A stretch of DNA of 64,000 bases from an uncultured Bacteroidota bacterium. GTDB lineage: Bacteria; Bacteroidota; Bacteroidia; Chitinophagales; Chitinophagaceae. This document shows, piece after piece, positions 37,640 to 42,332 of this stretch. Every line of letters starts with the position of its first letter. The first letter of the stretch is position 1. Where the stretch lies: positions 1 through 64,000 of the forward strand of contig CAINUN010000083.1 in the NCBI GenBank assembly GCA_903853805.1. The letters run 5' to 3'. The position numbers and the translations under genes are program-made. The notes under the pieces were generated by a model. The model had not been told where the DNA came from. It ran no database searches and saw only the letters and a program-made list of their open reading frames with translations.

Positions 37640-38959
37640 CTATCGAAGAAGCGTCACATTGTCTTGATATTTTTCTGAATTTCCATCTTTAAAATCTACA
37701 CTAATCAAGTAGATGTAAACACCACTTGGTTGGTCTTTGTCATTAAACTTACCATCCCATCCACGTCCGTCAATTTTGGTTGTTTCAAAAATAAGTTCAC
37801 CCCAACGATTGAAAATAGACATCTTGAAATTTGTAGCTCCTCTAGATAATAATTGACGAGGAAGAAAATAGTCATTCATACCATCTCCATTTGGTGTGAA
37901 ACTATTAGGAATATCAAGGTAGCAATCTTTAAATACTTCGATGCTGTCTGAATTTTCGCATCCATCTAGAGTAACTTTGGTAGTATAAATACCGGGGTGT
38001 CTTGCCATAATAGAAGAAGATGTTTCTCCAGTATTCCAAAACCAAGATGCAGTTGGATTTCCCGCATTGATAAAGTCACCAATTAATAATGGTGAACTAT
38101 TTGGACACATGGTTGTGTCAGGTCCAAGGTTGATAACGGGGAACGGTCTTATAACCATACTTTTTGTAAAAGTTGCATCAGGGCAATTACGGTATTGAGC
38201 AATAAAATTAATCGAGAAATTACCAGCTGTATCATAAGCATGTAAAATATTTTCTTTATTAAGGAAGAAATTACCATCACCAAAATCCCAAATAATCCTA
38301 GTGAGTCCTGACTTAAGGTAATCGCCAAAGAACGTTATACCTTTTCCTTCACAAAGAATTGAATCTGACATTGTAAAATTGGCATAAGGGATTGTATCCA
38401 CTACAATTGGCATATAGAACGTATCAAAACAAGGGATATCATCTTTAACAACCATCATCACTTGATAAGTTCCTGGAATTGGATAAACATGAGTAGGGTT
38501 AGTAGACGTTGCTGTAGTACTGTCGCCAAAATCCCAATAATAAGTAGCATTAGTACCTGAAGATTGGTTAGTAAAAGTCAAAAGCTGATTAGCACAAGCA
38601 CTATCATCATCTACTTTGAACAATGCTTTTATTGGATGCATGGTATTTACTTGGTGAGTTACCGAGTCTTTACAAATACCATTTGTAACTACAAGTTTTA
38701 CATTGTAAACCCCTTGTGTTAGGTAAATATGAGTAGGTTTTGCGGCTGTATCGCCAGTACCATCTCCGAAATACCATTTATTAAAGGTGTTTTGAACAGA
38801 ATTATTTTTAAAAACAACGGTATCTTCAGAACAACCTTTATGCAACTTAAAAGTAAACGCAGCAATGACTGGAGGGTCAACTAAATTGATGGGACCCACA
38901 ACATTTGAAAAACAAAGTCCTTTGAAAACAATAATGCTATCATAAACACCTGCTGATAA
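37640..38959 (-). pseudogene. PKD/gliding-motility C-terminal surface protein, 3' part
   Basis: This is the downstream part of a large surface protein, in frame with the gene ending at 38960. After the TGA the frame continues LSAGVYDSIIVFKGLCFSN and then runs into several PKD domains (YYWDFGDSTTATSTNPTHVY, IIWDFGDGNF). It ends in a gliding-motility-associated type B sorting domain (NSFTPNGDGMNDYF, FNRWGELIFET, GWDGKFNDKDQPSGVYIYL). Only from the ATG at 38899 could it be translated separately, and then without a signal peptide, so it would not be exported. Confidence 0.85.
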
Positions 38960-40090
38960 TCAACCCATGCTGATATAACCATAGATCGTTGAGGTAACTG
39001 CTACAGGCGGTTGCTGAACTCCGTTCTTTTTATAATGAACACTATAAATTTGGTTTGGGTCTAACCCATACAATGTATAAAAGCCGTTAGTTCCTCCACA
39101 AGTGGTAGGATTCCCTTTAGAAGCAGGAAAATTAGGATTATTAGGTTGAGGATTAATATTGGTGATAGTAGGACCGCCTCCGATTGATACTGTAACTGTA
39201 TCTCTTAAAGTATCTGCACATTTAACTGTCTCTGCCACATAAAAAGTTGTATTTGCTGGAGAAACAGAAATAGATGTTCCTGTACCAATTAACGTTGTAC
39301 CATTTGCATACCAACTAATTGTTGAGCCAGGTGATGGGATTGGTGCGTATGGGATTGGGATTATATTAAAGGTTGAAGTCGAAATAGGGATAAATCTATG
39401 ACTACTTTGAACTGCAGACCATTGAGTTGGATAATTTCTTCCGGTAACCCAATATGCTAATGTACCTGTATTATCTTGAACGCCTTCTATTGCAGCGCCT
39501 GTATTCCATGTTGGACAGTTTGGTGCATTACCTATATGAACTTCAATTTCATTACTAGTTTCGTAAAGAATAATTTGGAATGAAGCTAGTAAAGTTGTGC
39601 AACTAAACATGGCACAACCGCAGAAATTGATAACATATTTTCTATTTGGGGCAGTTCCAATTGTAGCAGTTTCAATTACACCAGGTGATGTTGTAAGTCC
39701 AGGATATATGTCGCAATAAAAACCCATAATGGAGTTAAGAACATTTGTATTTCCTGGAATTGCTGAAGTGATAGACCATGGAGAAAATGCACTCGCGTTT
39801 GCAACATTAAAACTGATATAACCGTTCTGAGAAACTACACAACTTGTATAATTATTCCCAAAGAAATTAAATGAGAAGCCTAAATTCTGTACTGGTGAAT
39901 AGGAATCGTCTAATGAAGGAAAAGCAAGAGGTGTCAACACCCCTGAACCAATAGTTGCTTGTAATGTTGTACTTGTATTTGGACAAATAGTAGTGTCTGG
40001 TGTAGTTATTTGCAACTGAGCCTTTGTTTGAATGCTCATAAAAAACAGCACAACAATTAGGCACTGGGAATAACGTATCATTAATCGCAT
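38960..40090 (-). pseudogene. PKD surface protein, 5' part (interrupted by in-frame TGA)
   Basis: This 376-aa part has a signal peptide (QCLIVVLFFMSIQTKAQ). It contains an Ig-like start (TTPDTTICPNTSTTLQAT), then a jelly-roll-like region and an Ig-like motif (AETVKCADTLRDTVTV). It stops at TGA 38962-38960 in the middle of a typical linker, GYISMG-stop-LSAGVYDSI. One base change (GGA to TGA) explains the stop. The whole reading frame from 40090 to 37640 would encode about 816 aa. Both halves are otherwise undamaged. Confidence 0.85.
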
Positions 40091-40236: not shown

Positions 40237-42216
40237 TCAAACGTGCGGCTTCCATAAAGTCAGTTTCCTTTGCAGCTTTCCCATTTTCGTTTTTGTTTGA
40301 ATGATAAGCTGCTCTAATTCAGCTCTAGTTTTATAAACCGACTCTTCTTCTGCAGCAATATTAAAACTGTCATCAGTAATGGCATATTTGCTGTTTTCAT
40401 CGAAACCTTTGATGTCTAAAACAGAAGTTTGTCCAAAAATTTGTTGTTTACTTTTTTGAATAGTTGTTGGCGTAATGCCGTGTACCAAGTTATACATAAT
40501 TTGTTTTTCTCTTCTGCGTTCAGTTTCGTCTATGGTTCGTTGCATGCTTTTAGTTATTTTATCAGCATAAAAAATAACCATGCCATTTACATTTCTTGCA
40601 GCTCTTCCTGCCATTTGGGTAAGCGATCGTTCATTTCTTAAAAACCCTTCTTTATCAGCATCAAGAATAGCCATCAAAGAAACTTCAGGTAGGTCCAAGC
40701 CTTCTCTTAAAAGATTCACCCCAACCAAGACATCAAAAGTTCCCAATCTTAATTCTCTTAATATTTCTACTCGTTCAAGTGCATCAATTTCAGAGTGGAT
40801 AAATCGTGAATTGACGTCAATCCTTTTCAAATATTTATCCAATTCTTCTGCCATTTTTTTGGTGAGGGTGGTTACCAAAACACGATCACCATTTTTCACT
40901 CTTTTGTCAATTTCATCCAGTAAATCATCTATTTGATTAATACTCGGACGTACTTCAATAGGTGGATCGAGCAAGCCGGTTGGGCGAACAATTTGTTCTA
41001 TCACCACCCCTTCACATTGTTCTAATTCATAAGGACCAGGAGTTGCGCTAACAAAAACAATTTGATTGAGCACATTTTCAAACTCATGAAAATTTAAAGG
41101 GCGATTATCTAATGCAGATGGCAATCGAAAACCATAATCTACCAAGTTCATTTTTCTGCTACGGTCGCCACCATACATACCACCAATTTGTGGAATAGTA
41201 ACGTGGCTTTCATCTATAATCAATAAAAAATCTTTTGGAAAATAATCTATCAAACAAAATGGTCTTGTTCCGGGTTCTCTTCTGTCCAAAAACCGAGAAT
41301 AATTTTCAACACCGCTGCAATAGCCTAATTCTTGAATCATTTCCAAATCATAAGATACACGCTCTTTGATTCGTTGTGCTTCTACATGCTTACCAATACT
41401 TTTAAAATATTCCGACTGAGCAAACATTTCATCTTGAATTTCATGAATGATTTGCGCCATTTGGTCTTTGGGTGCTATATATAAATTAGCAGGAAAAACA
41501 GCTGCGTTTTCCATAGGCGCAATTCGCTTACCAGATTCTATTTCAAAGCTTTCTATCTCATCAATTTCGTCTCCAAAAAAACTGATTCGATATCCATAAT
41601 CTACATAAGGCAGGTTGATATCAATCGTATCTCCTTGCACTCGGAAAGTACCCCTTGCAAATTCCCCTTGACTTCGATTGTACAACGCATTTACTAAGGA
41701 ATGAAGAAAGAAGTTTCTAGAAATTTTATCTCCTTTAGAAATGCGGATGATGCTGTTTTCATATTCAGCAGGATTTCCTATTCCATATATACAAGACACA
41801 GAAGCCACCACGATAATATCACGTCTACCACTCAGCAAACTTGAAGTTGCTCTAAGTCTTAATTTCTCCAATTCTTCATTGATAGAAAGGTCTTTTTCGA
41901 TATAGGTGTTGGATGTTGGAATATAAGCTTCAGGCTGATAATAATCGTAGTAAGAAACAAAATACTCAACTGAATTTTTAGGAAAAAACTGACGAAACTC
42001 ACCATATAATTGCGCTACCAACGTCTTGTTGTGGGTGAGAACCAAGGTAGGTTTTTGAACTTGTTGAATAACGTTGGCAATCGTAAAAGTCTTTCCCGAC
42101 CCTGTGACACCCAAAAGGGTTTGAAATGGTTCTCCCATAACAATTCCTTCCGTAAGGTGATGAATTGCTGCGGGTTGGTCACCGGCGGGTTGAAAAGGAC
42201 TTTCGAGTTGAAACAT
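40237..42216 (-). CDS. uvrB: UvrB excinuclease subunit, C-terminus lost by frameshift
   Basis: This DNA-damage recognition helicase starts at MFQLESPFQPAGDQP. It has Walker A GVTGSGKTFT (about 34-43), the beta-hairpin region YYDYYQPEAYIP and motifs LLIIDESHVT and GVNLLREGLDLPEV. The frame ends after 659 aa with LTLWKPHV, which is not UvrB-like. Reading one base over continues KAAKETDFMEAARLRDKM to a stop at 40190, restoring the UVR domain (675 aa). One missing A in the A5 run (plus-strand T5, 40290-40294) explains it. The lost domain normally binds UvrC. Confidence 0.93.
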   Translation of the reverse strand: MFQLESPFQPAGDQPAAIHHLTEGIVMGEPFQTLLGVTGSGKTFTIANVIQQVQKPTLVLTHNKTLVAQLYGEFRQFFPKNSVEYFVSYYDYYQPEAYIPTSNTYIEKDLSINEELEKLRLRATSSLLSGRRDIIVVASVSCIYGIGNPAEYENSIIRISKGDKISRNFFLHSLVNALYNRSQGEFARGTFRVQGDTIDINLPYVDYGYRISFFGDEIDEIESFEIESGKRIAPMENAAVFPANLYIAPKDQMAQIIHEIQDEMFAQSEYFKSIGKHVEAQRIKERVSYDLEMIQELGYCSGVENYSRFLDRREPGTRPFCLIDYFPKDFLLIIDESHVTIPQIGGMYGGDRSRKMNLVDYGFRLPSALDNRPLNFHEFENVLNQIVFVSATPGPYELEQCEGVVIEQIVRPTGLLDPPIEVRPSINQIDDLLDEIDKRVKNGDRVLVTTLTKKMAEELDKYLKRIDVNSRFIHSEIDALERVEILRELRLGTFDVLVGVNLLREGLDLPEVSLMAILDADKEGFLRNERSLTQMAGRAARNVNGMVIFYADKITKSMQRTIDETERRREKQIMYNLVHGITPTTIQKSKQQIFGQTSVLDIKGFDENSKYAITDDSFNIAAEEESVYKTRAELEQLIIQTKTKMGKLQRKLTLWKPHV

Positions 42217-42306
42217 TGAGAATAAAATTAAGGGTTTTAGAAAATGTATAATTAACGTTGAAAGCCAATACTCGAATTTACTAACAGAATAAATAGTAAA
42301 CAAACA

Positions 42307-42314
42307 TAGCTTTG
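42307..42314 (+). promoter_or_regulatory. -7 box of exported protein gene
   Basis: TAGCTTTG matches TAnnTTTG and ends 18 nt before ATG 42333. No good -33 element is seen. Confidence 0.35.
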
Positions 42315-42332
42315 CAAACAAAATAAATTACT

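Follow-up and report, generated by a model that had tools for sequence, protein, structure and literature searches.

A gene for a predicted surface protein of the type IX secretion system (T9SS) is interrupted by a single in-frame TGA in the draft genome of an uncultured member of the Chitinophagaceae. The TGA is probably a recent nonsense allele in the sequenced population, one that would prevent type IX secretion of the protein. The gene lies on the minus strand at 37640..40090 of the window, which here means the whole 64,000-nucleotide stretch of DNA that was analysed, and its 816 codons, the TGA included, are followed by a terminal TAG. The significance of the finding is small: it is an ordinary event, a surface-protein gene with a premature stop in one draft genome. 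It does present a uvrB-linked T9SS-type cargo gene that is strongly constrained in other genera; here it is broken, and five of six congeners lack it at that place. We infer that the stop is recent, that surface display is lost and that loss of the gene is in progress. A literature search listed no paper on this gene.

The interrupted frame and its domains

On the minus strand the translation reads MRLMIRYSQ...ISMG*LSAGVYD...NVTLLR*, where the internal asterisk is the TGA (codon 377; 38960..38962, minus strand) and the final one is the terminal TAG (37642-37640). A search of the whole genome returned the same region as an 835-codon stop-to-stop frame with one TGA inside. Both results agree with the first-pass annotation, which had described a frame open from 40090 to 37640 save for the TGA at 38962-38960. 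An 8-base direct repeat, TATCAGCA, flanks the TGA on both sides (window 38951-38975, minus strand), possibly by chance; compared with the aligned homologues, the window gene has no frame-changing insertion at this repeat. Promoter-like sites (10, versus a mean of 13.3 and a standard deviation of 3.6 in shuffles) and terminator-like sites (2, versus 1.8 and 1.3) showed no excess.

The TGA divides the gene into a 5’ part of 376 codons (38963..40090, minus strand), with an N-terminal hydrophobic signal-like segment and the start of a repeat-like beta region, and a 3’ part of 439 codons (37643..38959, minus strand), with three PKD stretches and a C-terminal T9SS type B sorting domain (PF18911, PF00801, PF13585, TIGR04131). 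All PKD and CHU_C/TIGR04131 domains lie after the stop. The PF18911 match scores 121 bits, and the sorting domain (37661..37915, minus strand) scores 60.7 bits with TIGR04131 (cut-off 35) and 67.1 with CHU_C PF13585 (cut-off 27). The 5’ part alone had no Pfam match, and the read-through protein gave a weak Ig_7 match below the cut-off. Signal-like segments were judged by eye, both in the 5’ part and in the intact homologues, whose N-terminal segments appear similar to that of the window protein. As the TGA lies between the signal-like segment and the sorting domain, the two would be on separate polypeptides unless the stop is read through. The domain positions thus uphold the earlier claim that the stop parts the sorting domain from the N-terminal signal, the latter being signal-like by eye.

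Excerpts from PMC12618676 describe T9SS cargo as carrying a Sec signal peptide and a C-terminal domain (CTD). Among type B CTD proteins, PMC9143113 names SprB of Flavobacterium johnsoniae, and it gives PorP-like proteins as possible anchors for proteins of this type. The window protein resembles type B CTD cargo with PKD repeats (TIGR04131 / CHU_C PF13585) in having the same sorting domain over cut-off and PKD beta domains, but its gene is interrupted by a stop. It is far shorter than SprB.

The first-pass annotation placed the stop inside a normal linker. This description was not borne out. The motif L-x-A-G-x-Y stands right after the stop and recurs as tandem repeats in relatives, which puts the stop inside a repeat-like region that is not clearly a linker. 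In a structure model built from six sequences (mean pLDDT 54), the stop falls between strands at 373-375 and 383-389; with pLDDT under 50 at residues 1-344 and 376-385, the model offers a hint of strands around the stop and no more.

Full-length homologues and the uvrB neighbourhood

The read-through protein was searched against 394 family genomes drawn from a larger group, with at most two candidates scored per genome. Matches at 1e-100 were obtained in 69 of them, the window genome included. Seven other genomes from four genera (G031, G143, G023, G213, G171, G090 and G107) have nearly full-length matches at 44-53% identity, and in each the gene is one ORF of 800-832 codons with no internal stop. 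An eighth nearly full-length match, in G287 (37% identity), also has an open frame and was left out of the alignment. The window genome’s own paralogue, on contig C19, is intact as well, with an 817-codon frame and 40% identity. Identity to the same seven homologues is 33-53% before the stop (346-363 columns) and 49-54% after it (437-439 columns). Because both sides of the stop align to the same single-frame proteins, the in-frame open region is not a chance occurrence.

The conserved upstream neighbour is uvrB (40237..42321, minus strand), its identity confirmed by family models (TIGR00631 and NF003673, both over cut-off). In all seven full-length homologues (loci L011, L012 and L037-L041), as in the window, uvrB lies just upstream on the same strand; it was not found beside the window genome’s own paralogue or beside L030. 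Sequence and position behind uvrB agree, and on these grounds the window gene is taken to be the orthologue of a uvrB-linked T9SS cargo gene of other genera. Single-frame homologues together with the uvrB adjacency in all seven likewise indicate that a single gene, interrupted by a stop, occupies the region, and not a pair of genes. The first-pass annotation had read it as a single gene split by a nonsense codon, and the uninterrupted homologues on both sides support that reading. The case it had named as contrary, orthologues that also carry the stop as two genes, was found in none of the seven, which lack any stop.

In the case of the stop codon itself, the same homologues give a different picture from the one proposed. 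A single base change from GGA had been suggested; it is possible but was not borne out, as the stop column holds Asn in four of the seven full-length homologues (AAC, AAT) and Tyr in three (TAT). The expectation of orthologues with Gly therefore fails for the closest seven. The wider set of 105 BLAST alignments over the position, in which repeats within one protein are counted several times, gives Gly 70, Asn 20, gap 7, Tyr 3, Ser 2, Thr 2 and Ala 1. Gly at this column is common in the more distant repeats. Gly as the ancestral residue was thus left unconfirmed. No close relative with the gene was found, the best full-length homologues being 52-53% identical.

The genus of the window genome shows a different arrangement. 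All seven of its genomes, counting the window genome, have uvrB. Behind it, five of the six congeners have other genes, with no match to either half of the window gene in the available sequence of at least 1.1 kb; in the sixth, the contig ends 255 bases past uvrB. Searches of the six congeners found no match to the full-length gene. Their best matches to the full protein start at residue 318 or later and lie on contigs other than that of uvrB, so we take them to be paralogues. The gene may be undergoing loss in the genus, with the window genome keeping a broken copy, a reading drawn from its absence behind uvrB in five of six congeners.

Conservation on both sides of the stop

The count of conserved columns took one sequence from each close group, five of eight in all. 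Where the four other lineages are identical, the window gene agrees with them at 60 of 65 columns upstream of the stop and at 120 of 141 downstream. When each of the other lineages was left out in turn, the corresponding values were 60 of 67-103 before the stop (58-90%) and 120 of 133-144 after it (83-90%). Before the stop, agreement of the window gene is therefore slightly above that of the other lineages; after it, the value lies within their range. Branch lengths for the two halves are 0.52 and 0.42 for the window gene, 0.53 and 0.41 for L011, and 1.32 and 0.51 for L041. Close homologue pairs within two other genera have dN/dS of 0.02-0.07 in both halves (dS 0.57-1.22), values that mark the gene as normally constrained and its family as one that, by this comparison, is under strong purifying selection. 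dN/dS gave no usable measure of relaxed selection on the window gene’s own branch, because its synonymous divergence from the homologues is either saturated or could not be computed. At the conserved columns the window copy shows no visible relaxation: agreement is not below that of the other lineages, and no further stop or frame break occurs in the 816 codons. The absence of visible decay in either half means that the stop is recent, is an assembly or strain error, or is weakly read through.

The recent nonsense allele is the reading that we favor. An orthologue of the intact uvrB-linked cargo gene would have acquired a premature UGA, and translation would end at residue 376 in the repeat-like beta region. 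The exported N-terminal piece would lack the type IX sorting domain. The part with the PKD and sorting domains would go unmade or, if translation restarted, would remain cytoplasmic because it lacks a signal peptide. Because the stop lies between the signal-like segment and the sorting domain, neither piece would be displayed like the intact protein, and the surface protein would be lost, as judged from its architecture. As for a nonsense pseudogene, the homologues are intact in the same place, all seven of them next to uvrB. An old pseudogene would be expected to show decay beyond the single stop, and none was seen, which argues against an old event; as a nonsense pseudogene, the gene allows only a recent one. 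The window gene resembles the bacterial genes with a single nonsense codon described in PMC7918605, which are recent pseudogenes or readthrough candidates: it has one stop, its homologues are intact, and its frame and conservation persist on either side. However, the window stop is known from one genome only.

Alternative explanations for the TGA

As far as tested, this genome uses UGA as a normal stop codon. Among 59 ORFs of the window, picked by hand and possibly including non-genes (the 3’ half was counted and the 5’ half left out), ten end in TGA, 38 in TAA and 11 in TAG. The gene uvrB is among those ending in TGA. This bears out the earlier argument that TGA-ending genes speak against recoding of the stop. 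Release factor RF2 is present over cut-off in one open frame. The SelB model gave eight matches in the genome, none over cut-off. No UCA anticodon was found among the 32 tRNAs called by ARAGORN from 33 tRNA matches, the uncalled one being partial and at a contig end; in this search 150 of 240 first-look candidates were scored, and 30 loci plus three extra stretches were read by ARAGORN. An intact RF2, the lack of SelB over cut-off, the lack of a UCA anticodon and the ten TGA-ending ORFs together indicate that UGA is read as stop.

tRNA-Trp(CCA) was surveyed in the window genome and its relatives (L084:1501-1572; L137-L166), and 28 of 30 loci gave a tRNA-Trp call. A24 is present in 25 of the 28 and a G27-U43 pair in 24, those of the window genome included. 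A suppressor tRNA-Trp specific to the window genome was rejected, as two relatives have an identical tRNA and most of those read share its features.

An error of sequencing, assembly or strain mixture is unlikely, and we consider it less likely than a recent nonsense allele. In that case most of the population would have a sense codon, and the TGA would be either a minority variant or a mistake in the consensus. Such an error would account for the lack of other damage in 816 codons and for the conservation kept in both halves. The genome is also a draft of 106 contigs (3,516,469 bases), another PKD/CHU_C gene in it is likewise interrupted, at a C8 tract, and the direct repeat brackets the stop, although that may be chance. 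However, the longest run of equal bases within 30 bases on each side of the TGA is three, so the commonest error motif is absent, and completeness and contamination of the assembly are rated at 100% and 0.04%. Two working genes, with the 5’ ORF encoding a short secreted protein and the 3’ ORF starting anew, are very improbable. A GTG at 38899 in the 3’ part could in principle serve as a start, but the stop falls within a repeat-like region, inspection by eye showed no signal-like segment at the start of the 3’ ORF, and none of the seven homologues is split.

Recoding of UGA, whether genome-wide or as selenocysteine, has nothing but the in-frame TGA itself in its favor. It was rejected on the RF2, SelB and tRNA results given above; the TGA-ending ORFs also oppose it, and the homologues carry Asn or Tyr at the column, not Cys or Trp, leaving it a negligible probability. 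Low-level readthrough by tRNA-Trp would yield a little full-length protein, so that expression is down but not off, and it would fit the frame and conservation preserved after the stop. According to excerpts from PMC7918605, in-frame stops with dN/dS below 1 are widespread in bacterial genes and readthrough has been suggested, but most such stops are short-lived. In the genome’s tRNA-Trp (numbered by hand), position 24 is A and the anticodon stem is topped by a G27-U43 pair, and G24A is among the changes shown to facilitate UGA readthrough in the excerpted text of PMC13092985. However, both features are common to most of the relatives read, two of which have an identical tRNA-Trp, so the window genome is not singled out and its tRNA-Trp does not explain the stop there. 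RF2 is intact, and the base after the TGA is T, which is not the leakiest context. Leaky UGA is thus improbable. Still more doubtful is a wider form of the idea, in which UGA leaks enough throughout the family, whose tRNA-Trp has A24 and a weak pair topping the anticodon stem, to act as a natural low-expression valve. In-frame UGA codons in large surface proteins would then be tolerated and tune display and, taken with the C8-interrupted protein, several adhesins would be kept switchable or dimmed. If readthrough were shown, the gene would exemplify the tuning of surface display by a stop codon in Bacteroidota.

The second interrupted PKD/CHU_C surface protein of the same genome (L128:2621-7878; G000:C50:47620-52877) is encoded by frames of 614 and 1154 codons that overlap at the C8 tract. 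No run of seven or more C or G occurs in the congener loci L130-L133. Phase variation, a frameshift mutation or an error of assembly could each explain the interruption. In four congeners the gene is one frame of 1968-1977 codons.
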